From Gemmataceae bacterium (GTDB lineage Bacteria; Planctomycetota; Planctomycetia; Gemmatales; Gemmataceae): 64,000 nt of DNA. The notes under the pieces are model-generated. The model saw only the letters and a list, made by a program, of their open reading frames with translations, ran no database searches and was not told where the DNA came from. The stretch's first letter is position 1, and each line of letters opens with the position of its first letter. The position numbers were made by a program, and so were the translations under genes. The stretch spans positions 3,133,586 to 3,197,585 of the forward strand of contig LR594584.1 in NCBI GenBank assembly GCA_901538445.1, given 5' to 3'. Of this stretch, positions 1,881 through 43,577 are shown piece after piece.

Positions 1881-4019
1881 ATGGGCCGGTACTCTCTCAC
1901 TCGCCTCCTCCCGTTCCTGCCCTCGCGGTTCAACCACCCGCGGCCCCGCGCGAACCGCACCCTCCTCGCGCTGGACCGCCTCGACGACCGCACCATGCCC
2001 GCCTCACTCGGCCTCGCGGCCGAGTACAACGCGCTCGTGTTCGGCAACTTTACCGTGCCGAACGGGACCGATACCGAGGGCCGACTCGCGATCGCCGGTA
2101 ACGCGACGTTCCTCGGCAACTACGCGCTCGGGGCCCCGCTCCCCGACTCGAACCCGACCGGGGCGCAGCTCCCCCTCGACCCGACCCGAGACACGCTGAT
2201 CGTGGGCGGGGACCTGACCAACGCCGGCGGCGTCTCGTGGACCGTGAACGGGAACGCGGTGTACCAGGGCACCTACACCGGCGTCCCGCTCTTCAACCAG
2301 TCCGGCGCGACGAGGCAGCAGTCGCCCATTCTTCTGTCCGAAACGAACGGGAACGCGGTCACCTCCGGTGGGCGGTCGTTTGCCGACCTGAGGGCCGAGT
2401 TGGAGGCGCTGTCCGCGGCGTGGGCGGCGACCGCGGACCGGGGCATCGCCACCGAGAGCCGGGGACAGTTCACGCTCACCCTCGTGGGGACCGACCCGGT
2501 GCTGAACGTGTTCAACCTGACCGCCGAGGAGTGGGGCGGGACAGACGTGGTGCGGACCATCACCGCCCCGGCGGGGTCCACGGTGCTGGTGAACGTGTCG
2601 GGCGAGTCGATCACCGTGTCCGGCGGCGACCTGGCCCTCAGCGGGGTCGACCGCGAGTACGTGCTGGTGAACTTCTTCGAAGCGACAACGTTCACGAGCA
2701 CGCTGTCCGACATCCGCGGCTCGGTCCTCGCCCCGTTCGCGTCGGCCACCTTCGACGGGGGGAACGTCGAGGGGAACGCGATCTTCGGGGGCAACGTCAT
2801 TCAGGGTGCGGCGGCCGAGTTCCACAACTTCCGGTTCCGCGGCGACATCACTATTCCGACGGTCCCGACCCTGCCCCCGGTCGGACCCCTGCCCCCGCTC
2901 CCCGGCGGCGGCGGAATCATCGGCGGCGGCAGCGGGGGCGGGGCCGGCGCGGCCCCGAGCAAGCGGGACCTGCTCGGCAGCGCGATGGGCCGAGCGGCGA
3001 CGACCGCAGCCGCCGTGACCGCCCGCGCGCCGGGCACGATGCCGAACTTCGCGATGTTCAACCCGTCCTCGGCCCGCCAACTGGTGTTCACCGCGGTCGC
3101 ACAGGACCGGGGCGGAATGGTTCGCGTGTTCGACTTCTCAACTGGCAACGAACGGTTCCGGCTCTCGCCGTTCGGGGCCGGGTTCGCGGGCCGTGTCAAC
3201 GTCACGACGGGCGACGTGACCGGGGACGGCATCCCCGACGTGATCGCGGCTACCGGCGCCGGGGCGAGGGGCGTGGTGAAGGTGTTTAATGGCGGGACGG
3301 GTGCGCTGGTCCGAGTGTTCCAGCCGTTCGGGCCCGGCTACACCCGGGGCGTGACGGTCGCCGCCGCCGACCTTAATGGCGACGGGTGCGCCGAGGTCAT
3401 CGTCGGGACCGGTGCCGGCGCGGCCTCGGTGGTGAAGGTGTTCAACGGCGCCACGGGCGCCCCGACCGCCCGGTTTCTCCCGTTCGGAGCGGCGAACCGG
3501 AGCGGCCTCCGGGTTGCGGCCGGCGACGTGGACCGCGACGGGACCCCTGATGTACTCGTGACGACCGCCACGGGCCCACTTCGTCTCGCCGGCTTCCGCG
3601 GCACGTCACTGACCTCGGGTGCCCCGACCGCCCTGTTCCGGTCGTTTGTGGTCGGTTCGGGGGCAAACACCGGCGGCGGATGGGTCTCGGCCGGCGACAT
3701 CAACGGCGACGGGTTCTGCGATGTGGCCGTGAGCCTCGGGGCGGGGGCGGCCGCACGCGTGATCTCGTTCTCGGGGCAGTCGCTCGCGGCCGGCGGAAGC
3801 GGCCGCATCAGTACCTCCCTCGTCGGCTCCGCAGCACACGCGGGCGACACCCGCGTCACGGTCGCCGATCTCGACGGCGACGGTCGGGCCGAGGTACTTA
3901 CTACCTTCGGCGGAGTTTTGGCCCCGACCGCGAGCGTGATGGACCCACTCACCGGCACCGTCCGAACAAAGTTCCGCACCTTTCATCCGGCCGCCGCGGG
4001 CGGCATTTATGTCGGCTAA
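1881..4019 (+). CDS. Exported choice-of-anchor A / FG-GAP repeat protein
   Basis: A 712-residue, probably surface protein. The N-terminus carries the planctomycete signature LLALDRLDDRTMPA, which in this phylum precedes exported adhesin-like proteins. Residues about 40-310 match the choice-of-anchor A fold (LGLAAEYNALVFGNFT; GRLAIAGNATFLGNY; GGDLTNAG). A Gly/Pro-rich linker follows, then five FG-GAP/VCBS-type repeats with calcium-loop motifs such as GDVTGDGIPD, ADLNGDGCAE, GDINGDGFCD and ADLDGDGRAE, which would form a beta-propeller. The ATG at 1881 is chosen because the signature follows it; the frame is open upstream to 1443, where the translation looks non-coding. A strong terminator follows the stop. 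Confidence 0.85.
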   Translation: MGRYSLTRLLPFLPSRFNHPRPRANRTLLALDRLDDRTMPASLGLAAEYNALVFGNFTVPNGTDTEGRLAIAGNATFLGNYALGAPLPDSNPTGAQLPLDPTRDTLIVGGDLTNAGGVSWTVNGNAVYQGTYTGVPLFNQSGATRQQSPILLSETNGNAVTSGGRSFADLRAELEALSAAWAATADRGIATESRGQFTLTLVGTDPVLNVFNLTAEEWGGTDVVRTITAPAGSTVLVNVSGESITVSGGDLALSGVDREYVLVNFFEATTFTSTLSDIRGSVLAPFASATFDGGNVEGNAIFGGNVIQGAAAEFHNFRFRGDITIPTVPTLPPVGPLPPLPGGGGIIGGGSGGGAGAAPSKRDLLGSAMGRAATTAAAVTARAPGTMPNFAMFNPSSARQLVFTAVAQDRGGMVRVFDFSTGNERFRLSPFGAGFAGRVNVTTGDVTGDGIPDVIAATGAGARGVVKVFNGGTGALVRVFQPFGPGYTRGVTVAAADLNGDGCAEVIVGTGAGAASVVKVFNGATGAPTARFLPFGAANRSGLRVAAGDVDRDGTPDVLVTTATGPLRLAGFRGTSLTSGAPTALFRSFVVGSGANTGGGWVSAGDINGDGFCDVAVSLGAGAAARVISFSGQSLAAGGSGRISTSLVGSAAHAGDTRVTVADLDGDGRAEVLTTFGGVLAPTASVMDPLTGTVRTKFRTFHPAAAGGIYVG

Positions 4020-4348: not shown

Positions 4349-4395
4349 AGCCTTTTGCCCTCGTAGCTCAGTGGATAGAGCACCGGTTTCCTAAA
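4349..4395 (+). repeat. attL: 47-bp direct repeat with tRNA-Arg 5' half
   Basis: These 47 bp are identical to 43230-43276. Bases 4357-4395 are the first 39 nt of a tRNA-Arg(CCT) gene, from the acceptor 5' strand through the anticodon loop; the 3' half is missing and unrelated sequence (GCAATTGG) follows. The end of identity, just after CCTAAA in the anticodon loop, marks the likely crossover region of the integrase. The fragment cannot make a tRNA. Confidence 0.88.
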
Positions 4396-12758: not shown

Positions 12759-13973
12759 ATGGTCGGGCACCTGGACGCGGACTGCTTCTACGTGTCGGCC
12801 GAGCGGGTCCGGCACCCGGACCTGAGGAACAAGCCGGTCGGCGTGTTGGGCAACAACGGGGCGTGCGTGATCGCCAAGAGCTACGAGATGAGGGCCGCGG
12901 GGGTGAAGACCGGCACGCCCATCTGGGACGCGGTCAAGCTGTGCCCGACCGGGGTGTACGTGAAGCGCGACTTCTACTGGTACGAGGTGCTGTCCCGCAA
13001 GATGCTGGAGGCAGTGAGCCGGCACTTCAGCCCGGTCGAATACTACTCCATCGACGAGTTCTTCTTCCGCGCGAACGCCCCGCGGGCCGGCCAGCGGCTG
13101 CACGACGCGGCCCTCGCCGTCCGCGACCACATCCTCGAGGCGTGCGGGTTGCCCGTGACCATCGGCGTGGCCCGCACCCGAACCCTGGCGAAGCTGTTCT
13201 CCGACACCGCCAAGCCGTTCGGGGCGGTCACTGTGACCGACCGCGACCACGAGCGGGAGCTGCTGGCCCGGCTCCCGGTGACGGAGATCAGCGGGGTCGG
13301 GGGCCGGCGGGCGGCCCGGCTCGCCCCCTACGGCATCCGCACGTGCCTGGACTACGCCCAGGCCGAGGGCAGGCTCATCCGGCAACTCCTCACGAAGACC
13401 GGGTACGAGCTGTGGCTCGAACTGAACGGCCACCCGGTCACCCCCATCCGGCCCGAGCGGACGCCGCACCAGGTGCTCGCCCGGGGCGGGAGCCTGATGG
13501 GCAACGTCGAAGACCCGACGGTGCTGTGGGCGTGGTGCGTGCGGCACACCGAGCGGCTCATCGAGGAGCTGCACTTCCACAACGTCCGCACCGACGCGCT
13601 CGGCGTCAGCCTGGCCTGGAAGGACGGCGAGTCCACCGCGGGCGTGTGCAAGTTGCCGGTCCCGTCGGACCGGTTCGACGAGTTGCTCGACGGGGCGCGG
13701 ACCGCACTCCGCCGCGCGTACCTGCCCCGCAAGGTGGCGACCCACATGCACGTCGTCGCCCCCGAGCTGCGGCGGGCGCGGGGGTTCCAGTTGTCCTTGT
13801 TCGACCCGCCGAACGCCAAACTGGACGCGGTGGCGCGGGTGAAGACCGCCGTCAACGAGCGGTACGGGCGGTTCAAGCTCCGCAGCGCCTCGACGCTGTA
13901 CCTGCCGGCCGTGTACGCCGACCCGGCGAACAACTTCGACATCTGCGACGTGCGGGGCAAGGTGTGCTTCTGA
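12759..13973 (+). CDS. Y-family translesion DNA polymerase
   Basis: 404 residues with the catalytic acidic residues visible: HLDADCFYVSAE (Asp6, Asp8) and YYSIDEFF (Asp99, Glu100). The palm/fingers motif VGVLGNNGACVIAKSYEMR is typical of UmuC/DinB enzymes, as is the helix-hairpin-helix ISGVGGRRAARLAPYGI. The little-finger domain ends near residue 345. An excellent AAGGAGAT precedes the ATG. It should copy past DNA lesions. The upstream palindrome suggests damage or repressor control, and the next gene, 19 bp downstream, may be a linked SRAP-like protein. Confidence 0.93.
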   Translation: MVGHLDADCFYVSAERVRHPDLRNKPVGVLGNNGACVIAKSYEMRAAGVKTGTPIWDAVKLCPTGVYVKRDFYWYEVLSRKMLEAVSRHFSPVEYYSIDEFFFRANAPRAGQRLHDAALAVRDHILEACGLPVTIGVARTRTLAKLFSDTAKPFGAVTVTDRDHERELLARLPVTEISGVGGRRAARLAPYGIRTCLDYAQAEGRLIRQLLTKTGYELWLELNGHPVTPIRPERTPHQVLARGGSLMGNVEDPTVLWAWCVRHTERLIEELHFHNVRTDALGVSLAWKDGESTAGVCKLPVPSDRFDELLDGARTALRRAYLPRKVATHMHVVAPELRRARGFQLSLFDPPNAKLDAVARVKTAVNERYGRFKLRSASTLYLPAVYADPANNFDICDVRGKVCF

Positions 13974-23496: not shown

Positions 23497-24045
23497 CTAC
23501 GGACGGTGGGCCTGGGCCAGCACCACGGCGAGAGACGCGAGGGCGTCCTCGAGCACCCCCTCCTCGTCCTTGCGGACCGCCCGGCCGCCCCAGAAGTGCG
23601 CCGCGACCACGGCCCGCTGGGCGGGCGGGAGCGCGTCCACCGCCCGCCGGACCCGGGCCTCGCGGTCGCCCCGCTCGGCGGCGGCGTCCGGACCGAGCTG
23701 GCCATCGACAGCCAGCTCGGCGAGGTACGGGCGGCCGTCGTTCTCGCCCGGCCCGCGGGGGCGGACCGCCGGCACGATGACGGTGTGGATCGTGCGGCGG
23801 CCGGCGTCGCTCAGCCGCCCGCTGAGGGTGCGGGCGACGAGTTCGACCCACCGCGGGTACGCGCTCCGCCGGGGGTCGTACCGTCCGCCGAGGAGGGCGG
23901 CGACCAGCTCTTGGCGGACGTCGTCCCGGTCCAGCCGGTGGCGGGCGGCGATCCGGTTCGCGTACCGCCAGACGAGCCGGTCCCACTGGGCCAGCAGGGC
24001 GTGCGGTGTCGGGGGGTGGGGTTCGGGGGCGGCGGCCGCAACCAC
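23497..24045 (-). CDS. Sigma-70-like protein
   Basis: 182 residues from GTG 24045. A region 2-like segment (LVWRYANRIAARHRLDRDDV then RQELVAALLGGRYDPRRSAY) is followed by a linker and a short region 4-like end (RRAVDALPPAQRAVVAAHF) that stops before a complete helix-turn-helix. It may be an element-encoded sigma factor for the tail-like genes downstream, or an anti-sigma-like derivative. Confidence 0.6.
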   Translation of the reverse strand: MVAAAAPEPHPPTPHALLAQWDRLVWRYANRIAARHRLDRDDVRQELVAALLGGRYDPRRSAYPRWVELVARTLSGRLSDAGRRTIHTVIVPAVRPRGPGENDGRPYLAELAVDGQLGPDAAAERGDREARVRRAVDALPPAQRAVVAAHFWGGRAVRKDEEGVLEDALASLAVVLAQAHRP

Positions 24046-28372: not shown

Positions 28373-31300
28373 CTACCCGCCCCAGGTGCGGCCGACGGTC
28401 GCCTCGACCTCGACGGCCACCGGCGCGATGAGCGGGGCCATGCCGTCGACCATCGCCGCCTTGACCCACTCAACGGTTGCCGCGGACTTGGCCTCGTCGC
28501 ACTCGACCACGATCTCGTCGTGAACGAACAGCACCGGGAAGGCGTCCGGGCACCGGTCCCGCCGCTCCCACAGGAGCGCGAGGGCCGCCTTGAGCCCGTC
28601 GGCCCCGGTGCCCTGCACCGGCGTGTTGAGGGCTTCGGTGATGTTCGGGTACGGCGCGCGGCAGGCGGGCTTCTTGGCGACCGGCAGGAGCCGTCGCCGG
28701 CCGGCGAGGGTCCGGACGTCGTGGACCGCGTCCGGGTCCGCGTCGAACTTCGCCTTGATGGTGTTCCGCACCTTCTGGTGCCACGCCCGCAGCCCGGCGT
28801 AGGTCTTGAAGAACGTCTCCCGGTGGGCGGTCGCCTCGGCCTCGGTGAGCGTCACCCCGTAGCTGCCGAGGGCGTAGGCCATCAACCCCTTCGCGCCCTG
28901 CCCGTAGAGCAACCCGAAGTTCACGCTCTTTGCGAGCTGGCGGTCCGCCTTGCCCACCTCGTCCTTGCCGAGCAGCGCGCGGGCGGTGAGGGTGTGGATG
29001 TCCTCGCCGCTGCGGTACGCGGCCAGCATCCGCTTGTCGCCGGTCAGCTTCGCGGCGATCCGCAGCTCGATCTGCGAGTAGTCAGCCTTCACCAGCGTGC
29101 GGCCCGGCGGGGCGACGAAACACCTGCGGTAGCGGGGGTCGCGGGGGAGCTGCTGGAGGTTCGGCTCCTTGCACGACATGCGGCCGGTGGCCTCGGCCCC
29201 GAGCTGCTTCCACGCGGCGTACACCCGCCCGTCCGCCGCGACGTTCTTCAGCCACGCCTTGCCGTAGGTGCCGACGAGTTTCGCGAGCCCCCGGTACTCC
29301 CGCACGAGGGCCGCGATCGGGTGGTCGATGGCCGCCAGCGTGGCGTCGTCCGTGCCGGTGACGGTGACACCGACCGACGCGAACGCCTCGGTCACTTCCG
29401 CAGGCGCGTTCCAGTTCCGCGACTGGGTCAGGTTGTGGCCCGGGGCGGCGGCGTCGAGCTGCTCACGAACGGCGTCCTGCTTCTGCTCGGCCTCGGCCGC
29501 GAGTGCCTCCCACGCCGGGCGGTCGAACCCGACTCCCTTCGACGACGCCCACGCCACGGCGGGCACCGCCGCCATCTCCGCGTCGAGCACCCGGGAGAGC
29601 TTGGCAGCGGCCGCCCGCTCCCTCAGCACCGCCCACGCAGCGGGCGGGGTCTCGGCGTCCCGGGCCGCGTACCCGAGCATCTCGGGGGTGAGCGCCTTCG
29701 ACCAGTCCGCCTTCTGCTCCGTCTTGTTGAGGGTGACGCCCAGCACGCGGGCCGCCACGTCCTTGAGCCCGTGCCGGGTCTGGAACTCGCCGGCGTGGAG
29801 CACCTGGGACGCCAGCATGGTGTCGGCGACCCGACCGGGGACGAACCCCAGGCGGGCGAGGAACGCGAGGTCGAACGCGAGGTTGTGCCCGCACACGCCG
29901 GCGCGGGCCAGCACCTCGAACACCTCCTCCAGCGCGGTGCGGGGGTCGGCGAAGGCGCTCAGGTCGACCACGAACGTACCGCGGGCGGTCGCCAACTGGA
30001 TCAGCCGGACCCGGTCTCGGGACGGGTCCAACCCCGTCGTCTCGGTGTCCAGCCCGACCACCCCGCCCCCGTCCTCGATGGCGGTGACCACGTCCGACAG
30101 CCCGGCCGCGGTGGTGACCAGCGTGTACGGGGTCTGCACGACGATCGCCCCGGGGGCGGCGGTAGGCACGGAAGCCTGATTTCTCGCTTCGGGGTGTTGC
30201 ACGACGCACGATGTTTCCGACGATCGGTTTTCGAAGCCGCCAGCTACCTCACCCGAAATGCCGACTGGGTCGGGCTTTACGACGCCACCTGGAACGGGCG
30301 TCGGGGGCGGCCCTTCGGGCGGTCCGGGGCGATCGTCGGAAGCACCCCCGAAGTCTGTGTCGTCGTCCCCGGGGCGATCGTCGGAAACGTCGTGCGTCGT
30401 GCAGGGCTCGGGACCGGGATTCTCGCCTTCGGCGGGGGGCGGGGTGAACACGAAGTACGCCACCCGGCGGCCCCCCTTCGGGTCCGCTTCGCCGTCCACC
30501 CACGCCCCCAGCCCGAGCCCGACGAGTCGCTCGAGGTCCAGGGCCGCGTCCTCCTTGGTGCGGTACCTCCGACTGTTCGCCTGCTGCAGCGTCTTCACCG
30601 ACACCCGCCCGCCGTTCCGGTCGGCCAGCCGGGTCACCAGCTCGACGAGCCGGCGGACCTCCTTCTCCTCGTCCGACTGGTGGATGGTCCGGTAGACGCG
30701 GTCGGCCTCCCGGGCGAACCACTCGGCCAGCGCGATGCCGCACTCCAGGCTCTCGGCGGACACGGGGTCGGTGTCCTCCAGCGAGCCGGCCTTCAACACG
30801 CAGTGGTGGATCAGCGCGAACCGCCCCGGCAGCGCCTCCAGCTTCGCCAGGGCGGCCGCCTCCGCTCCCTCGGCCTCGAACTGCCTGAGTCCCCAATCGT
30901 TCACGAACTGCTTCATCCTCTCCCGGGCGGGGCGCGAGAGGGGCACCACGACCGGCTTCGGGTCGCCGTCCTCGTCCACCTCGGCGGCGAGGTCGTACAG
31001 GGCCGCGAGGGACGCGGCCGCCTGCTCCTTCACGCCCTCGTCGATGCCCGCGTCGGTCCACACCTTGGGCGTCCGCGGCGGCATGCAGAACAGGATGCGG
31101 GCGACCAGCCCGCTCTCGAAGAACCCGGCGGTCATCAGCCGGCCGAGCGTGCCCGGCTGGATGCCCCCGGTCACCGACGCGGCCCCGAACGGGACGTACA
31201 CGGTCGGCTTGTCGCCCGTCTTCCGGTCGTAGATGATCGGCCCGGCCCGGTGGATCGACAGCCAGTTCGTCTCGTCGCTGGCCCCGGACGCGCCCTTGTA

Positions 31301-32761
31301 CTTGGTGAAGCTCGTGACCCACCCGGCCAGCTCGTCGCGGTACAGCAGCACCCCGCGGCGGTTGTCGTCGAGGATGCCGGACAGTTTCTCGATGGTGATG
31401 TCGCCGACGATGCTCCGCTTGAGCAGCGGCTTGGGCGGCGGGTCGCCCCGGTCCGGGTCGTCGGCCCGCTCCTTGTACTCCGCCACCTCCCGCTTGTAGT
31501 CCTGCAACTTCTCCTTGTACTCCTTGACCTGCTTCTTCTGACGGGCCTGGACGAGGTCCACGGACAACTCGGCCGCGGGCGACTTGCGGCCCCCGGACTC
31601 CTGGACGACGCACGTCCACAGTACGGCCGGCTCGAACCACTCGGCCCCGAGGTGGACGCGGCGGGTGGTGCCGATGGCGGAGGCCAGCACCGCCAGCACC
31701 GGGAGCGCGACCAGCGCCTCGTCGCACTTCAGGGCGGCCGCCCCCTGGGCCACGAACGCCGCCCACGGCTCCGGCAGGCAGCGGGTGGGGAACGGGGCGT
31801 AGGCCGGGATCGGCACGTACCGCGGCTTCGGGGCCGCACGACCGCACGACGTTTCCGACGATCGCCCGTTGCCCATCGTGGGCTTCGGCTCGCGGCGGAT
31901 CTTCAGCCAGGTCCGCACCTGGTTCACCACGGCCGGACCCGCGGCACCAACGGCCTGCTGGAACGACGGCCACCCCGCCGCGGTCTCGCCGTTGCGGAGC
32001 CGCTCGGCCGTGGTCCGCACCGCCGTCAAGCGGTCCTTCAGTTCGGTGTCGCCCGCGGCGGCGCACACGGCGGTGACGAACGCCTCGACCAGCTCCTCGG
32101 GCCACCCGGCCCGGAGCAACCCGCCGGCCAGTGCCAGCGAGGCGTTGTGCCGCCCGCCCCCCGGCCAGTGCCGGGCGATCAGAGCGGCCGAGGCGACCCG
32201 GCTGACGGCCGCGTGCAACTCCTTGACGCACACCCGTGCCGGCTCGCCCGACCGGTACCACACGCACGGCTCTGCGGTCGCGTGCCCGCCCTCGGGGTCG
32301 GCCGGGTAGACGGACGGGGGGACCACCGACTGCCCGCCGGTGCTCCGCAGTTCGAGTAGGAGCGACTTGCTCCGGTCCGTGTTGGTGGGGTCGCTGAACT
32401 TCTCGGCCGCCCGCTTCGGCGGCTCGTCCACAACGTACCAGTGGTGCGACGTCGGGGCGGACGCCCGCCCGGACACCATGCCCGTCGGCGGCAGGAGGTG
32501 TGGGGCGGCGACAATCGCCTCGGGCGAGTCCGAATCGACATCGACCACCCCGCTCGGGTCGCCGAGCAGCACGCCCATGTTGCTGTCGACGGCGAACCGC
32601 TCGTCGATCTCGTCCTCGTCGATCCGCCACTCGGGCCACGCCTCGCCGGCGGGCTTCTTGGACCGCGCCGGGAGCGGGATCGGGTACAGCCCGCGGCGGC
32701 GGAGCTGGCGGGCGGCCTCGCGGACGTCGCGGGGCTTGCCGTTGGGCGTGGTGCCGTTCAC
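28373..32761 (-). CDS. Prim-Pol / DUF3987 / 3'-5' exonuclease / DNA polymerase A fusion
   Basis: 1462 residues in one frame. Residues 10-190 are a bifunctional primase/polymerase (PF09250): GVVDVDSDSP with Asp74, Asp76 and Asp78, and SHHW at 105-108. Residues 315-770 match DUF3987, with a P-loop-like ESGGRKSPAAE (388-398) and LLYRDELAGW (472-481). A Lys/Glu coiled coil lies at 405-435. A DnaQ-like exonuclease begins at VVGLDTETTGLD (Asp905, Glu907). Polymerase A motifs are DYSQIELR (1227-1234), RQLAKSVNFGLLYGQG (1274-1289) and VHDEI (1413-1417). It could prime and extend DNA alone, with the DUF3987 part as a probable helicase-like module. The fusion is much longer than any part alone. Confidence 0.92.
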   Translation of the reverse strand: MNGTTPNGKPRDVREAARQLRRRGLYPIPLPARSKKPAGEAWPEWRIDEDEIDERFAVDSNMGVLLGDPSGVVDVDSDSPEAIVAAPHLLPPTGMVSGRASAPTSHHWYVVDEPPKRAAEKFSDPTNTDRSKSLLLELRSTGGQSVVPPSVYPADPEGGHATAEPCVWYRSGEPARVCVKELHAAVSRVASAALIARHWPGGGRHNASLALAGGLLRAGWPEELVEAFVTAVCAAAGDTELKDRLTAVRTTAERLRNGETAAGWPSFQQAVGAAGPAVVNQVRTWLKIRREPKPTMGNGRSSETSCGRAAPKPRYVPIPAYAPFPTRCLPEPWAAFVAQGAAALKCDEALVALPVLAVLASAIGTTRRVHLGAEWFEPAVLWTCVVQESGGRKSPAAELSVDLVQARQKKQVKEYKEKLQDYKREVAEYKERADDPDRGDPPPKPLLKRSIVGDITIEKLSGILDDNRRGVLLYRDELAGWVTSFTKYKGASGASDETNWLSIHRAGPIIYDRKTGDKPTVYVPFGAASVTGGIQPGTLGRLMTAGFFESGLVARILFCMPPRTPKVWTDAGIDEGVKEQAAASLAALYDLAAEVDEDGDPKPVVVPLSRPARERMKQFVNDWGLRQFEAEGAEAAALAKLEALPGRFALIHHCVLKAGSLEDTDPVSAESLECGIALAEWFAREADRVYRTIHQSDEEKEVRRLVELVTRLADRNGGRVSVKTLQQANSRRYRTKEDAALDLERLVGLGLGAWVDGEADPKGGRRVAYFVFTPPPAEGENPGPEPCTTHDVSDDRPGDDDTDFGGASDDRPGPPEGPPPTPVPGGVVKPDPVGISGEVAGGFENRSSETSCVVQHPEARNQASVPTAAPGAIVVQTPYTLVTTAAGLSDVVTAIEDGGGVVGLDTETTGLDPSRDRVRLIQLATARGTFVVDLSAFADPRTALEEVFEVLARAGVCGHNLAFDLAFLARLGFVPGRVADTMLASQVLHAGEFQTRHGLKDVAARVLGVTLNKTEQKADWSKALTPEMLGYAARDAETPPAAWAVLRERAAAAKLSRVLDAEMAAVPAVAWASSKGVGFDRPAWEALAAEAEQKQDAVREQLDAAAPGHNLTQSRNWNAPAEVTEAFASVGVTVTGTDDATLAAIDHPIAALVREYRGLAKLVGTYGKAWLKNVAADGRVYAAWKQLGAEATGRMSCKEPNLQQLPRDPRYRRCFVAPPGRTLVKADYSQIELRIAAKLTGDKRMLAAYRSGEDIHTLTARALLGKDEVGKADRQLAKSVNFGLLYGQGAKGLMAYALGSYGVTLTEAEATAHRETFFKTYAGLRAWHQKVRNTIKAKFDADPDAVHDVRTLAGRRRLLPVAKKPACRAPYPNITEALNTPVQGTGADGLKAALALLWERRDRCPDAFPVLFVHDEIVVECDEAKSAATVEWVKAAMVDGMAPLIAPVAVEVEATVGRTWGG
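30199..30226. repeat. 28-bp motif in replicase linker, copy 1
   Basis: This copy ends with GTTTCCGACGATCG and encodes RSSETSCVV on the gene strand (residues 846-854). It differs at one base from the inverted copy at 30375-30402. Confidence 0.7.
30375..30402. repeat. 28-bp motif in replicase linker, inverted copy 2
   Basis: This copy starts CGATCGTCGGAAACG and reads opposite to copy 1, so the protein sequence differs (CTTHDVSDDRPG, residues 787-798). The 18 bp at 30324-30341 are a partial further copy (CCGGGGCGATCGTCGGAA). Confidence 0.7.
31837..31865. repeat. 28-bp motif in replicase linker, copy 3
   Basis: Same orientation as copy 1, with one inserted base. It encodes GRSSETSCGR (residues 299-308), exactly between the Prim-Pol and DUF3987 domains. 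Confidence 0.65.
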
Positions 32762-33106: not shown

Positions 33107-33442
33107 TTACTCGGGGAGGGTGGCGAAGCGGTTCTTCCGCAGCAGCGCGCCGACGACGGCGGCCGCCTCGGGGTCCGGGGCGGCGCCCGGCACCTCGCAC
33201 GCGACGACCCACCCGCCGGCCGCGAGGAGCGGGCCGAAGGACACGCGGAGCCCGGCCCGCTCCAGGTCCCGGGCGAGGCGGAGCCCCGGGACGCCGACGA
33301 TGGCGGCCGCGCTGCCCCGGCCCACGACGACGACCCGCTCCGGCCGGGCGAAGACGCGGACGTGCCCGTCGGGCCAGTCGCCGGGGGCGACGAGTTCGGT
33401 GACCATGTCTTGCATCTGCGTGATCAGCAGCGAGGTGTTCAT
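33107..33442 (-). CDS. Small hypothetical protein of replication operon
   Basis: 111 residues from ATG 33442, overlapping the stop of the upstream gene by 4 bp (ATGA). It has alternating strands and helices (VRVFARPERVVVVGRGSAAA; LRLARDLERAGLRVSFGPLL). Not recognised. Confidence 0.6.
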   Translation of the reverse strand: MNTSLLITQMQDMVTELVAPGDWPDGHVRVFARPERVVVVGRGSAAAIVGVPGLRLARDLERAGLRVSFGPLLAAGGWVVACEVPGAAPDPEAAAVVGALLRKNRFATLPE

Positions 33443-33666
33443 GCGGCCCCCCTCAGGTCGTCGTCCCCGGGGGCGTTGGCCTCGTCGACCTCGGCCTGCC
33501 GGTCGCGGACCCACAGGTCCGCCGCGAGGCGCTCCGCGTCCTCGGCCAGGACGTGCGGGGTGCCGTCGAGCGCTGTATGGTTCGTGACGAGCCACTCGTC
33601 GTGCGGCTCGTCGATGCGGTCTGCGAGGTTGGCGCTGGGGTCGGTGTCCGGGTCAGGCGGGTGCAT
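33439..33666 (-). CDS. Small acidic hypothetical protein
   Basis: 75 residues, acidic, starting MHPPDPDTDPSANLADRIDE; a helix (LAEDAERLAADLWVRDRQAE) is followed by an acidic end. Its stop overlaps the next gene's ATG. Not recognised. Confidence 0.55.
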   Translation of the reverse strand: MHPPDPDTDPSANLADRIDEPHDEWLVTNHTALDGTPHVLAEDAERLAADLWVRDRQAEVDEANAPGDDDLRGAA

Positions 33667-33742: not shown

Positions 33743-34015
33743 TCAGCCGGGGAAGAAGTCGATGGTCGTGGTCGTCCGCCGCCGGCGGACGACCTTGGGC
33801 TGCGGGGCCGCCGCGGAGCGGAGGCGCTCGAACTCGGCGAGTGACTCGGGGGTCACGACGAACCGGGGCTTCCCGCAGACCGTGTCCGCGGTGTTCACCG
33901 CCGCGAGTTCGCCCCGCCGGATCCACAGGCGGACCTTGTCGGGGCTGACCCGCAGGCGGCGGGCCACTTCTTCGACGACGAGTCCGCGGTGGGACGAGAC
34001 GACGGGGTTAGCCAT
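33743..34015 (-). CDS. Excisionase-like helix-turn-helix protein
   Basis: 90 residues from ATG 34015. The HTH_17/excisionase fold is visible: RGLVVEEVARRLRVSPDKVR, LWIRRGELAAVNT, then GKPRFVVTPESLAEFERLR with a wing. A basic tail (VVRRRRTTTT) follows. It is the best candidate for the recombination directionality factor of this element, although such proteins can also be transcription regulators. Its start overlaps the stop of the upstream gene by 8 bp. Confidence 0.78.
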   Translation of the reverse strand: MANPVVSSHRGLVVEEVARRLRVSPDKVRLWIRRGELAAVNTADTVCGKPRFVVTPESLAEFERLRSAAAPQPKVVRRRRTTTTIDFFPG

Positions 34016-37882: not shown

Positions 37883-39022
37883 ATGCGGCTGGCGGACTTC
37901 ATCGCGACCAACCTGGAGCCGATCATCGCGGAGTGGGAGGCGTTCGCGCGGACCCACGTCCCCGCCGGGGAGGCGATGGACGTCGCCGGCCTGCGCGACC
38001 ACGCGGCCGACATCCTGAAGGCCGTCGCGGCGGACCTCCGCCGCCCGCAGACCGAGCGCGAGCGCGGGGCGAAGGGGACGGGGGACGCCGGGCCCCGCCC
38101 GGGGGCGGCCGACACCGCCGCCGAGACGCACGGTGCCCTGCGGGCGGAGTCCGGGTTCACGCTCGGGCAGATGGTGTCCGAGTTCCGGGCCCTGCGGGCG
38201 AGCGTCGTCCGCCTCTGGCGGGCGGCCGGGGCCGGATCGAGGGGCTCGGACTTCGAGGACCTGACGCGGTTCAACGAGGCCATCGACCAGGCGCTGGCCG
38301 AGTCCCTCACCCGCTACGCCCGCGACCTGGACCACTCGAAGGAGATGTTCCTCGCCATCCTCGGGCACGACGTGCGGACGCCCCTCGGGGCCATCATGAT
38401 GTCGGCGACCGGGCTGCTCGTGAGGCCGGACCTGGCCCCGGCGCACCAGGCGGCCGCGTCCCGCATCCTGAACAGCGGCGCGCGCATCAAGGGGATCGTC
38501 AACGACCTGCTCGACCTGACCCGGGCGCGGCTGGGGGCCGGCATCCCGCTGGCGTGCGCCGAGATGGACCTGGGGGAGGTCGGCCGACAGACGGTCGAGG
38601 AGGTGGCCGCGTACCACCCGGACCGCGACCTGCGGTTCGAGGCGTCGGGCCCGGTGCGCGGGTCGTGGGACGCGGCCCGCCTCGGCCAGGCGCTGTCGAA
38701 CCTGGTCGGGAACGCCGTCCAGCACGGCTCGCCCGCGGCGCCCGTCGCGGTCGCCGTGCGGGGGGCGGCCGACGAGGTGGCGGTGTCAATCCACAACCGC
38801 GGGGCGGCCATCCCCCCGGCGCACGTGAACCTGATCTTCAGCCCGCTGAAGCGGATCGCGCCGGACACCCCGCGGCCTCAGGACTCCGGGAGCATGGGCC
38901 TGGGCCTCTACATCGCCAACGAGATCGTGAAGGGGCACGGTGGGCGGATCGACGTCGAGTCGTCGGACGCCGGCGGCACCACCTTCACCGTCCGCCTGCC
39001 GCGTCACCACCCGGCCGCGTGA
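37883..39022 (+). CDS. Histidine kinase with RsbRD-like N-terminus
   Basis: 379 residues, cytoplasmic (no membrane helix). The N-terminus FIATNLEPIIAEWEAFARTH resembles the RsbRD_N sensor domain. HisKA is MFLAILGHDVRTPLGAIMM with phospho-His in GHDVRTP. The HATPase has N box ALSNLVGNAVQHG, an altered G1 region (IHNRGAAIPPAH) and G2 GSMGLGLYIANEIV. GAGGAG precedes the ATG. The receiver genes nearby (40490-40858, 41302-41751) are possible partners. The C-terminus overlaps a small leftward lipoprotein gene antisense. Confidence 0.88.
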   Translation: MRLADFIATNLEPIIAEWEAFARTHVPAGEAMDVAGLRDHAADILKAVAADLRRPQTERERGAKGTGDAGPRPGAADTAAETHGALRAESGFTLGQMVSEFRALRASVVRLWRAAGAGSRGSDFEDLTRFNEAIDQALAESLTRYARDLDHSKEMFLAILGHDVRTPLGAIMMSATGLLVRPDLAPAHQAAASRILNSGARIKGIVNDLLDLTRARLGAGIPLACAEMDLGEVGRQTVEEVAAYHPDRDLRFEASGPVRGSWDAARLGQALSNLVGNAVQHGSPAAPVAVAVRGAADEVAVSIHNRGAAIPPAHVNLIFSPLKRIAPDTPRPQDSGSMGLGLYIANEIVKGHGGRIDVESSDAGGTTFTVRLPRHHPAA

Positions 39023-40489: not shown

Positions 40490-40858
40490 TCACGCGCCCT
40501 GGTGCCCGAGGGCGGCCAGGAGGTCGCCGAGCGCGGCCGGTTTGGCCAAGTGGCGGTCGAACCCGGCGTCGCAGATGCGCCGCCGCGAGCCCGGGTCGGT
40601 CGCGGCCGAGACCGCGACCAGCAGAGGCGGCGCGGCGCCGGGCCGGAGCCGGCCCGCGAGCACGTCCCCGTCCATCCCGGGCATGTTGAGGTCCAGCACG
40701 CACACATCGGGGCGGAACGACTCGGCGAGCGCGAGAGCGGAGGGGCCGTCGTAGCACGCCCGGGTCTCGTACCCCAGGAGCGCGAGCACCTCGGCCGTGG
40801 AGTCGGCCGCGTCCCGGTTGTCGTCGACGCACAGGATCCGGCGGTTGCTCGGGGTCAC
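40490..40858 (-). CDS. Stand-alone response regulator receiver protein
   Basis: 122 residues from GTG 40858. Receiver domain: ILCVDDNRDAADSTAEVLAL, phospho-acceptor in VCVLDLNMPGMDGD, conserved Thr/Ser in LLVAVSAATD and Lys in HLAKPAALGDLL. No output domain. A longer frame upstream is open but Ala/Arg-rich and unlikely to be translated. Confidence 0.82.
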   Translation of the reverse strand: MTPSNRRILCVDDNRDAADSTAEVLALLGYETRACYDGPSALALAESFRPDVCVLDLNMPGMDGDVLAGRLRPGAAPPLLVAVSAATDPGSRRRICDAGFDRHLAKPAALGDLLAALGHQGA

Positions 40859-41301
40859 GTGGTCGCTCGGGAGTGCGGGGAACAAGACGGGGGGGACTGT
40901 GGCACTTATCGGGCCGCCGGCGGGCCGCGCCCCCCAGCCCCGCACTCGCCCGTACGGATCGCCGCGAAAATCTTTCGCGTGGCCCCCGAGGGCCGGACCA
41001 GCTCCGGCGTCTCCGGCTGACAGTTTGCGCACTCCCGTACCGATTCGGCAGGGCGCGTCGCTGCTCGCGGAGGTCCGAGAGGCCGACGGCGTGGCGGCCG
41101 CGGCCCCGAGTGTGACACGCCCCGCGGAATTCAAGGCTCCGACGCCCGAGCGGCGAACGCGGGTTGCCGCCCGGGCTCGCGCCGGTGCCGCACAACCGCG
41201 GGCCGGCGCGAAGAGTCGATCCTTCGCCCCCGCGGCGCGGCCGGGCACGAAAGGTGCGGCCGTGTGACGGGCCGCATCACCCGCACGCCCCAGGTCCGAC
41301 C

Positions 41302-41871: not shown

Positions 41872-43086
41872 TCACGCCCCGGCACCGCCGAACACCCAGT
41901 TGCGGACGTGGTCCGCGACAGCCCGGAGCCGCTCGTCGCTGATCGTCTCGCGGTAGTGGCTGCTCATGTGGGCCACCTCGTGCCCCATGACGTAGTCCAC
42001 GGCCGGCTGGTCCTTCGACTCGTCGGCGGCGGTGCGGAACGTGTGCCGCAGCGTGTAGAACCCGACCCCCTTCCGCGTGTCGATCCGCAGCGCCCGGAGG
42101 AGCTTCTTGAACTCCTTGGCGAGGGTCGGGTCCGCGGTGTCCTTGGCCCACGGCCGGCCGTACTTCGTCACGAACACGAGGTCCGCGTCGGCCGGGTCCG
42201 TCGGCTCCGGCCGGGCGGCCCCCGCCTCGCGGATCGCGGCGACGGTCTCCGGCCACAGCACGCAGCGCCGCGGGATGCCCGTCTTGGGGCGGGGGTAGTC
42301 GATCACGCCGCGGTCGAGGTCCACCGCGGCCCGAGGGAGCCGCCCGCAGTCGGCGTTCCCGAACCCGCAGTTGATGCCGAGGAGGACCATCGCGCGGACC
42401 GCCCTGCCCGGCCGCACGAGTTCCGGTTCCGCGTCGCCGACCCGCACCGTCGCCCCGTCGATCATCGCCCGCACCTCGGCGGCGGAGAACAGCTTCGGCC
42501 CCCGCTTCGCCCGCTCGACCCGGATCGTCTTCCGCGTCGGCCGCTTGAAGCTCTGACCGTAGAGCACGGGCCGGGTCACCAGGCCGTTGTCGGTCGCGAA
42601 CTTGAAGACGCTCCGCACCCGCTGGATGGTGTTCCCCAGCGACACGGGGCCGAGCCGCTTGGCCAGCGTCGCCCGCACGGCCGCGAAGTCGTCGGGGCCG
42701 ACGTCGTCCGCGAGCCGGGACTTCCCGAAGTGGGCGATCACGACCTCGCACGCGGACTTGTAGTCCTCCCAGGAGCGCTGGGTCAGTTCACCGGACTCGA
42801 CGGCCGCCTTCTTGGTGTTGAGGAACTGGTTGCACACGTCCTTGACCGTGACACCCGCTGACACCTCGCGCGGCTTGCGGCCGGCGTGGAGCGCGTCCTT
42901 CTCGGCGAGGTACTTCTTCAACGCGCCGTCGGGGTCCGCCCACGGGCCGAAGTAGTGGAGCTGGCCGCGGATCTTCTTGGCCCACCGCTTCGTCGCGTGG
43001 GGGAAGAGCGGGAACTCGGGGTACGGCTTGTTGGGCTTCGGGGATTTGCCTGCGCGTGCGGACGCGGTATCATGCTCCTCGGGCAT
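41872..43086 (-). CDS. int: Tyrosine recombinase/integrase of the element
   Basis: 404 residues. N-terminal core-binding domain: VKDVCNQFLNTKKAAVESGE, then SWEDYKSACEVVIAHFGKSR. The catalytic domain has Arg347 (FYTLRHTFRT), His369 (VDYVMGHEVAH) and the nucleophile Tyr378 (SSHYRETI). The box I Arg is not at its usual place: the matching stretch reads NCGFGNADCGRL. The His of box II is also replaced (FYTLR). The gene lies 143 bp from attR and transcribes away from it. It should catalyse integration at the tRNA-Arg anticodon loop. Confidence 0.92.
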   Translation of the reverse strand: MPEEHDTASARAGKSPKPNKPYPEFPLFPHATKRWAKKIRGQLHYFGPWADPDGALKKYLAEKDALHAGRKPREVSAGVTVKDVCNQFLNTKKAAVESGELTQRSWEDYKSACEVVIAHFGKSRLADDVGPDDFAAVRATLAKRLGPVSLGNTIQRVRSVFKFATDNGLVTRPVLYGQSFKRPTRKTIRVERAKRGPKLFSAAEVRAMIDGATVRVGDAEPELVRPGRAVRAMVLLGINCGFGNADCGRLPRAAVDLDRGVIDYPRPKTGIPRRCVLWPETVAAIREAGAARPEPTDPADADLVFVTKYGRPWAKDTADPTLAKEFKKLLRALRIDTRKGVGFYTLRHTFRTAADESKDQPAVDYVMGHEVAHMSSHYRETISDERLRAVADHVRNWVFGGAGA

Positions 43087-43229: not shown

Positions 43230-43276
43230 AGCCTTTTGCCCTCGTAGCTCAGTGGATAGAGCACCGGTTTCCTAAA
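43230..43276 (+). repeat. attR: 47-bp direct repeat
   Basis: Identical to 4349-4395. Here it forms the upstream 8 bp and the 5' half of the intact tRNA-Arg gene. The anticodon stem-loop CCGGTTT-CCT-AAACCGG is a natural 17-bp palindrome, a typical recombinase core. Confidence 0.88.
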
Positions 43277-43310
43277 CCGGGGGTCGCGCGTTCGAATCGC
43301 GCCGAGGGTA
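43238..43310 (+). tRNA. tRNA-Arg(CCT)
   Basis: 73 nt with a complete cloverleaf: acceptor GCCCTCG/CGAGGGT, D-arm GCTC/GAGC, anticodon stem CCGGT/ACCGG with loop TTCCTAA (anticodon CCT), and T-arm GCGCG/CGCGC with TTCGAAT. The discriminator is A and no CCA is encoded. Its 5' half is supplied by the element and its 3' half by the chromosome, if the integration model is right. Confidence 0.93.
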
Positions 43311-43577
43311 CTTTCCTCTTTTGGACTCGGTCCTCCTTAACCGTCTCCTCCCCCTGCAATCTCCGGGGGTTCGCAGAAATTTGGGGCCAACTGTCCAACG
43401 GTCTGAGATCCTCAACGTGCCTCAATCGCAACCGTCCGCAACCGTTTCCTGTCGCGCCCCGTGCTGCGGTCTGCTGCTCCCGTGCCGTGCCGGTCGTGGC
43501 GGTGTTCGGAACGGGGCGGCGAAGTCCCTGGGCTGGTGCTCGAACGTCACCTCCCGGCCGTTGAGGCCTGAGCACAC
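43311..43577. other. Intergenic region after tRNA
   Basis: I see no gene or clear signal. Frames that run into the tRNA give peptides like SARFERATPGLGNRC, a known false translation of tRNA genes. Confidence 0.6.

Follow-up and report, generated by a model that had tools for sequence, protein, structure and literature searches.

Within a 64,000-nucleotide stretch of the genome of a Gemmataceae bacterium (assembly GCA_901538445.1, contig LR594584.1, positions 3,133,586 to 3,197,585; in the following, the window), a single open reading frame (ORF) joins a primase-polymerase (Prim-Pol), a DUF3987 domain, a 3'-5' exonuclease and a family A DNA polymerase (the latter two together, exo-PolA). Repeated DNA lies in the parts that code for the linkers between these domains. 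This gene, called the replicase gene after the role proposed for it below, and its repeats are the subject of the present analysis; coordinates are collected in Table 1. The 4.4-kb frame is found on the minus strand, while the plus-strand reading of 28373-32761 is interrupted by a stop and regarded as a GC-rich shadow of the replicase gene. A sequence-only reading of the stretch had proposed one frame with four domains in this order, which was confirmed by a search with hidden Markov models (HMMs) that passed all Pfam cut-offs: Prim-Pol at residues 21-156 (44.6 bits, cut-off 22.8), DUF3987 at 345-691 (210.3 and 27), DNA_pol_A_exo1 at 879-1037 (93.7 and 23.6) and DNA_pol_A at 1135-1461 (240.7 and 34.3). 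NCBIfam and PHROGs concur with Pfam on the exo-polymerase half, and for the N-terminal half PHROGs further reports a match to DNA primase and one to DNA helicase. The Pfam scan of the ORF showed no single-stranded DNA-binding protein, clamp or 5' nuclease domain.

Full-length homologues align with the window protein through the C-terminus; the alignments begin at residues 5-12, or at 31-35 in two homologues whose N-terminus differs. In an alignment of seven full-length sequences, i.e., the window replicase and six homologues 45-61% identical to it, the N-terminal half features invariant D74, D76, D78, H106, E137, K393, D476 and E477, and the exo-polymerase half invariant D905, E907, D964, Y1031, D1035, D1227, R1274, K1278, H1414, D1415 and E1416. 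These include the catalytic residues which the earlier reading had called intact and which proved to be so in all seven sequences (D74/D76/D78 and D905/E907).

Table 1. Features of the replicase gene and of the surrounding island (positions in the window).
Feature	Position	Strand	Basis or remark
Fused replicase gene, 1462 codons, GTG start	28373..32761	(-)	ORF reading, Pfam, full-length homologue alignment
Primase-polymerase (AEP/Prim-Pol) with helical PriCT-like domain, residues 1-290	31892..32761	(-)	Pfam, AlphaFold2 model, fold match
DUF3987 domain, MCM-like AAA+ helicase by predicted fold, about residues 328-692	30686..31780	(-)	Pfam, AlphaFold2, VIA-align, Foldseek
Probable C-terminal winged helix, residues 697-772	30446..30673	(-)	Predicted H697-715, H722-728, H736-748, E752-756, E768-772
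Low-conservation linker joining helicase half to exo-polymerase half, residues 786-878	30128..30406	(-)	Identity profile
3'-5' exonuclease (DEDDy) domain, about residues 879-1042	29636..30127	(-)	Pfam; D905, E907, D964, Y1031, D1035 invariant
Family A DNA polymerase domain, about residues 1055-1462	28376..29599	(-)	Pfam, profile matches to solved structures
Iteron-like arm 1, three GAC sites stepped 7 and 9 bp	30375..30404	(-)	Sense orientation
Iteron-like arm 2, inverted	30197..30226	(+)	28/30 bases as in arm 1; 148 nt gap
Third copy of arm, 25 bp, inverted	31843..31867	(+)	In primase-helicase linker
Partial direct copy, 18 bp	30324..30341	(-)	Partner 30369-30386 overlaps arm 1
Small conserved protein upstream of replicase	33439..33666	(-)	Homologues upstream of replicase in G005, G016
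HTH_17 protein, excisionase-like, upstream of replicase	33743..34015	(-)	Homologue between replicase and integrase in G016
Sigma-factor-like protein common to G005 element	23497..24045	(-)	39-40% identity
attL candidate, 47-bp perfect copy of tRNA-Arg 5' half with 8 bases of leader	4349..4395	(+)	
attR candidate, other copy of 47-bp repeat	43230..43276	(+)	
tRNA-Arg(CCT), integration target	43238..43311	(+)	
Tyrosine recombinase (integrase) adjoining tRNA-Arg	41872..43086	(-)	Phage_integrase; phrog_1 E 2.5e-30
Y-family (impB/mucB/samB) polymerase gene inside island	12759-13973		
Histidine kinase gene, apparent cargo between xis-like gene and integrase	37883-39022		
Response regulator gene, apparent cargo between xis-like gene and integrase	40490-40885		

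Domains and distribution of the fused gene

The AlphaFold2 model of the Prim-Pol region (predicted local distance difference test score, pLDDT, 93.8) finds its best fold match in ORF904 of the plasmid pRN1 (1rni; Z 15.3, root-mean-square deviation (rmsd) 2.9, 177 residues aligned, 16% identity). In 24 Prim-Pol sequences, 22 of them from viral contigs, D74/D76/D78, S105, H106 and E137 are invariant. The region thus features the DhD motif, the motif II histidine, the acidic motif III and the pRN1-like fold of an AEP Prim-Pol (PF09250). The motif names are those customary for the family, in part after PMC5862659.

Residues 1-790 were modelled with a pLDDT of 87. VIA-align superimposed the DUF3987 model on chain 7pfo_6 of the core human replisome (Z 17.0, rmsd 3.6, 261 residues aligned), and MCM chains fill the list. 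Foldseek ranked 5dgk, the protein Cch of the staphylococcal cassette chromosome SCCmec, second (probability 0.98) and 7ola, the primase-helicase of the Staphylococcus aureus pathogenicity island SaPI5, eighth (0.80), all matches having E > 0.001; Cch, among the top rows, is the active helicase of SCCmec. This suggests that the predicted DUF3987 fold is that of an MCM-like AAA+ helicase, in line with the unwinding activity that had been supposed for the protein, whereas the P-loop is degenerate. Four homologues carry GDSGTLK[ST] or GKSGAIKS at this site, and the first glycine is lost in the window (QESGGRKS) and in two relatives. The earlier 'GGRKS' near residue 390 is thus to be read as this degenerate P-loop; the lysine K393 and the Walker B residues D476/E477 are invariant. 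Behind the helicase domain follows a predicted helix-helix-helix-strand-strand unit, which probably forms a winged helix, and some of the MCM fold-match rows extend to residue 773-775 at an rmsd of about 9. In the linker thereafter, identity to the six homologues falls to 18-35%, compared to 35-72% in the domains.

According to profile scores, the closest solved relatives of the exo-PolA half are 8jrb (391 bits) and the Plasmodium enzyme PREX (371-376), compared to 251 for E. coli Klenow and 212 for Taq, and by this measure the half is close to the PREX type. It is not a DNA polymerase I (PolI) of the host type, as Pfam finds no 5'-3' exonuclease domain in the replicase; this domain is present in a host PolI copy (L003).

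The same architecture was sought in other genomes, denoted here by genome (G), contig (C) and locus (L) numbers. A profile of the fusion, applied at E 1e-150 (E-values per genome), matched 19 of 95 genomes from the family. Nine intact four-domain ORFs were found in eight of the 95, the window's own genome included; they were counted from 11 distinct ORFs after removal of L017, a truncated duplicate of L045, and L043 of G016, with a frame-disrupted Prim-Pol. The window's genome (7.86 Mb, four contigs) carries, besides the gene described, a second full-length copy with 47% identity and a broken fragment with in-frame stops. Split versions occur as adjacent genes, e.g., with 948 + 631 residues in G050 and 960 + 644 in G128, the latter harboring fused and split forms alike, and frame-disrupted or split relatives were found in G016, G010 and G008. 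The possibility of a chimeric assembly, to which these split versions might point, is contradicted by the recurrence of the architecture in nine genes from eight assemblies, twice in the window's genome, and can be regarded as practically negligible. Of the objection formulated in advance, i.e., halves that are separate elsewhere and a fusion confined to one assembly, only the first part applies.

One of the relatives, G005, belongs to the window's genus by label and corresponds to the public contig JAIOPV010000001.1 from a metagenome-assembled genome of the Planctomycetota, being identical over the 20 kb compared. At the level of the phylum, three of 391 genomes besides the window's own match at E 1e-150, all over the N-terminal half, at a threshold which would overlook strongly diverged fusions. 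The match in G135 reaches profile position 909 of 1433 in a frame of 1061 residues, the end of which gave no match to the exonuclease and polymerase HMMs. A tree was computed for 21 exo-polymerase rows from selected loci, all with exo+pol regions of more than 440 residues. Fused and split genes do not separate in it but mix within one supported group of 18 rows (100/98), to which two sequences derived from viruses also belong; the polymerases of two cyanobacterial plasmids and a host PolI fall outside this group. Among INPHARED phage records, none of the matches listed (at least 5000) covers 80% of the replicase; likewise, 153 of 72,556 plasmid records match, none at 80% coverage. A single-sequence search of IMG/VR gave no replicase relative, and alignment searches of the same database (best 80 of 81 and best 80 of 143) revealed, by HMMs, four domains in one ORF in 0/160 loci. 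A weak search of public genome contigs with six short single-sequence peptide patterns returned one locus.

Two further arrangements of such genes were observed. In G008, two DUF3987 + exo-pol gene pairs of opposite orientation and near-equal scores (C1:2086619-2089776 and 2135107-2138264) are located about 45 kb apart. In the window's genome, a more distantly related DUF3987 gene (L006, G000:C3:2950817), which has a short inverted repeat of its own, is situated about 1.7 kb from a PolA-like frame (C3:2953890-2954372), and both possibly represent a third, split system.

Repeats within the gene and the proposed origin

Direct and inverted repeats recur within the replicase genes, in linker-coding DNA. 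Fourteen genes were examined, of which nine are fused and five split or frame-disrupted. Among inverted repeats whose starts lie 60-330 nt apart, the longest of each gene is located at the helicase-exonuclease junction in every case and measures 13-47 bp. Codon-shuffled controls reached this length in 0/300 cases for 11 genes, in 1/300 for G002 and G129 and in 12/300 for G128. A wider comparison gave a repeat behind the helicase coding region at no more than 2/200 shuffles in 20/20 rows linked to a window-type exo-polymerase versus 9/25 other DUF3987 genes. Linked rows comprise 14 with an exonuclease or polymerase HMM in the same stop-to-stop ORF and six with a split neighbor, and they are not independent, with G013, G010 and a G008 copy sharing arm sequence; some of the 25 other genes may have a distant polymerase nearby, e.g., C3:2953890 near L006. 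Moreover, the shuffles (by codon or by two-base step) preserve composition, not the low complexity of linkers.

The arms differ in sequence between genes and are shared by close relatives (G013, G010, G008 copy), and several contain TGTGAC. Many of them have a layout of three GAC-ended sites with steps of 7 and 9 bp in common, whose strict inverted pairs occur in 6/25 loci, all at the junction. Within the 7.86-Mb host genome, a 22-mer of the window arm occurs three times at up to three mismatches, always inside the window replicase gene, and a 23-mer of the second copy twice, both inside its own gene (reversed controls, 0 each). A host-wide dispersed repeat of the REP type was therefore rejected as the source of the arms, as no other occurrence at up to three mismatches exists in this 95% complete genome. 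Repeats at the peptide level were likewise rejected because the inverted copies encode different peptides, and for the same reason the signal lies in the DNA. A DNA inversion that switches between fused and split forms was not supported by in silico inversion of the segment in the 14 genes: the frame stays open in seven (the window gene, G013, G000b, G002, G040, G043 and G129), a new stop arises in G005 and G128, and for the remaining five, in which stops are present from the outset, the operation is uninformative.

Taken together, we read the gene as encoding the replicase of an integrated element, phage-like or satellite-like, and as carrying its own origin in linker DNA, with a probability of about 0.62. 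An autonomous replicase had been supposed earlier. Replication of the element is the most likely role in view of real domains, conserved active sites, a recurring architecture and an integrated mobile element, whereas the autonomy is unproven, given the degenerate P-loop and an ORF in which Pfam finds no single-stranded DNA-binding protein, clamp or 5' nuclease. An origin embedded in the replicase gene is proposed because position and layout of the arms match the origins of satellite islands 3' of the initiator gene. In phage-inducible chromosomal islands (PICIs), the origin immediately 3' of rep has an AT-rich region flanked by two sets of iterons (PMC6092414), and SaPI Rep recognises its origin through the C-terminal domain (PMC7581432). 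By analogy, the element would excise before replication, and the winged helix of the helicase half would bind the two inverted sets of iteron-like sites at the helicase-exonuclease junction. There, the helicase would assemble and open the DNA, on which the Prim-Pol domain would lay primers to be extended by the tethered exo-PolA. The linker DNA would probably descend from an origin that once separated a primase-helicase gene from a polymerase gene and became coding when the two were fused. A stronger version, to which we give somewhat less than an even chance, is a one-gene replicon, i.e., a single 4.4-kb ORF encoding origin recognition, helicase, primase and proofreading polymerase together with an element-specific origin in its linker-coding DNA.

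Several points weigh against this proposal. Among the 25 DUF3987 genes without a window-type polymerase, 16 show no significant repeat. Inverted pairs with the GAC layout at a minimum of 8/9 positions were found at the junction in 8/15 genes, the layout having been read off the same genes without a formal chance control. The strict GAC triplet by itself is not rare: other loci of 2.97 Mb in total gave 114 hits and 19 pairs, many being overlapping copies of the replicase genes analysed here. The arms are weak or closely spaced in G128 and G129. An AT-rich melting region between the arms was sought and not found, unlike in PICI origins. With regard to the protein, the degenerate P-loop may render the ATPase of the window copy weak and thereby weakens the helicase claim for it, and the winged helix, read from predicted secondary structure and loose MCM rows, is a putative DNA binder. 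The Prim-Pol of a mobile element can furthermore be dispensable for replication, as in Thermus ICETh2 (PMC7693054). Besides, a scan against Pfam or PHROGs that covered 28 of the 41 genes called in the island detected no terminase or capsid gene.

The repeats in the tolerant linker of a true replicase might instead serve as an operator, partition, packaging or RNA-level regulatory site. The serine-recombinase elements of relatives encode ParB_N-methyltransferase, sigma-like and TerS-like proteins which could read such a site, and the missing AT-rich interval would fit it as well. We consider this rather unlikely, as repeats follow the helicase coding region, at the position of SaPI/PICI origins, even in nine of the 25 DUF3987 genes without a window-type polymerase, and because of this presence they track the helicase. 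An enzyme for repair, translesion synthesis or defense against invaders, carried as cargo, would agree with the Y-family polymerase gene in the same island; this is improbable given that several different integrated elements carry the helicase, primase and proofreading polymerase jointly with recombinases and that the repeats inside the gene are element-specific. Similarly low is the chance of a decaying or partly dead fusion product. The degenerate P-loop, the disrupted or split relatives in three genomes and the fragment with in-frame stops might indicate decay, whereas all other catalytic residues checked are invariant and nine genes are intact. Codon position 3 is moreover the most and position 2 the least divergent over the whole gene in 6/6 homologue pairs, though GC-rich pairs show a small excess and the L039 pair shows none in its N-terminal half. 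Accordingly, the replicase with an embedded origin is retained as the preferred reading.

Relation to known replication systems

The full set of four activities had been thought undescribed, which does not hold. PREX, the replication enzyme of the apicoplast in Plasmodium and Toxoplasma, combines primase, helicase, exonuclease and PolA in one polypeptide, and differs in being eukaryotic, plastid-targeted and proteolytically processed (PMC8113025). The resemblance comprises four activities in one chain and extends to the polymerase, which with up to 376 bits is among the closest solved relatives of the window exo-PolA. The primase and helicase of PREX are of the TOPRIM and Twinkle/T7 type. The window replicase has an AEP Prim-Pol and DUF3987 instead, with pRN1-like and MCM-like predicted folds. 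The activity set is therefore already known from PREX. New, within the searches made, is the choice of a primase-polymerase of the pRN1 kind and of an MCM-like helicase that is probably followed by a winged helix. The enzyme may thus be seen as a bacterial counterpart of the malaria plastid enzyme, with other parts around a related polymerase. This supports the idea that, on mobile DNA, members of this exo-PolA subfamily have more than once been fused to primase-helicase modules not related to one another.

A near-parallel is OS3173 Pol of Aquificae viruses, a 1606-aa fusion of a DUF927 primase/helicase-like region with 3'-5' exonuclease and PolA (PMC7689252). Its relatives are fused or split, as are those of the window replicase, but its N-terminal half is DUF927/COG5519, not Prim-Pol and DUF3987, and the available part of the paper does not mention an origin in the linker (PMC7689252). 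In the window replicase, Pfam gave no DUF927 match up to E 1, compared to DUF3987 at 210 bits. Likewise, the viral contig IMG/VR 3300031825_000018 (L081) features an ORF of 1558 aa in which an exo-PolA 48% identical to that of the window lies behind a primase/helicase-like N-terminal half; this half differs in consisting of DUF3854 and a sub-threshold DUF927. A repeat of 14 bp is present there, at 1/300 shuffles.

With regard to the N-terminal half, ORF904 of pRN1 shares the Prim-Pol fold and is a plasmid-encoded fusion to a helicase (PMC4538821). The pri-rep-ori modules of SaPIs and PICIs and Cch of SCCmec share the MCM-like helicase fold, a primase adjoining or fused to Rep and two iteron sets 3' of rep (PMC6092414, PMC7581432). 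The window resembles them in the position immediately 3' of the helicase coding region and in two sets of repeats, whose arms are putative protein-binding sites; it differs in a candidate origin inside the ORF, a fused polymerase and the lack of a visible AT-rich interval. Phage lambda is known to have its origin within the gene of its initiator, gene O (PMC6022878). The plasmid pAL20118a of Cyanobacterium aponinum has an AEP + DnaB_C gene directly followed by an exo-PolA gene, yet both are unfused, the helicase is of the DnaB type and the junction shows no significant inverted repeat (28/300 shuffles; 58/300 at a further cyanobacterial plasmid junction). This plasmid (L163) measures 12.2 kb and, with the two genes in succession and two recombinases, represents a compact self-replicating module. 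To our knowledge, ORF904 is without exo-PolA, and lambda O is neither primase, helicase nor polymerase.

Literature searches found neither a combination of pRN1-like Prim-Pol, MCM-like DUF3987 and PREX-like exo-PolA nor origin-like repeats inside such a gene. A survey of bacterial polymerases from 2026 does not contain the words 'primase' or 'helicase' in the available main text (PMC12926913). If the repeats are an origin, initiator, primase, helicase, polymerase and origin would be found within one gene, with a possible use in isothermal DNA amplification. If the one-gene replicon holds true, the origin and its reader would co-evolve within this gene and each element would have its own iterons. 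The read-through of an intergenic origin would, in addition, offer a concrete mechanism for gene fusion.

The island and related mobile elements

The replicase gene is taken to lie inside a tRNA-integrated island of 38.9 kb between two 47-bp repeats. This extent is adopted because of the perfect repeat, the integrase and the same half-tRNA copies in three relatives: a homologous integrase and half-tRNA repeats occur at the same tRNA in G008, G013 and G016. An empty island site could not be shown in relatives, where DNA-level alignment was limited to the tRNA, joined in some by the integrase, and the flanking proteins had no common place. The left part of the island carries host-like cargo, i.e., a nuclease, the Y-family polymerase gene and a gene that weakly matches pilin, and because of this the island may be composite. 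Genes in the window and its flanks were called by a codon-based script and not by a standard caller. The sigma-like protein of the window has a weak, sub-threshold match to Sigma70_r4_2, and its G005 homologue matches the sigma factor phrog_1740.

At the tRNA-Arg(CCT) loci of G013, G016 and G008 (L192, L194 and L196), the half-tRNA copies are 16-50 kb away and the replicase is unmatched. From such copies, this tRNA looks like an integration hotspot in the window's genus. In G003 (L289, C1316:13300-13900) and G011 (L290, C225:5450-6000), the match to tRNA-Arg(CCT) is broken into two segments, 1-36 and 37-74, with some 240-290 bases between them, which looks like an intron or insertion in the anticodon loop; no Rfam family was found in these split genes at the gathering score.

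The elements of relatives feature a conserved module of a DUF2924 protein, a large serine recombinase, a sigma-like protein, the replicase, a ParB-methyltransferase and a TerS-like protein, as annotated on G013 and transferred to the other elements by sequence clusters. Terminase large subunits (TerL) were detected in the G005 and G040 elements and a tape-measure-like gene in G005, and the replicase-bearing elements of relatives are read as prophages or phage satellites. TerL itself is apparently divided between two genes, the first of which encodes the ATPase (L040:3631-4506 and 2994-3659; L044:9878-12739). The second gene corresponds to phrog_27743, with a weak match to the terminase family phrog_5909 in G005, and is present in several tandem copies in G040.

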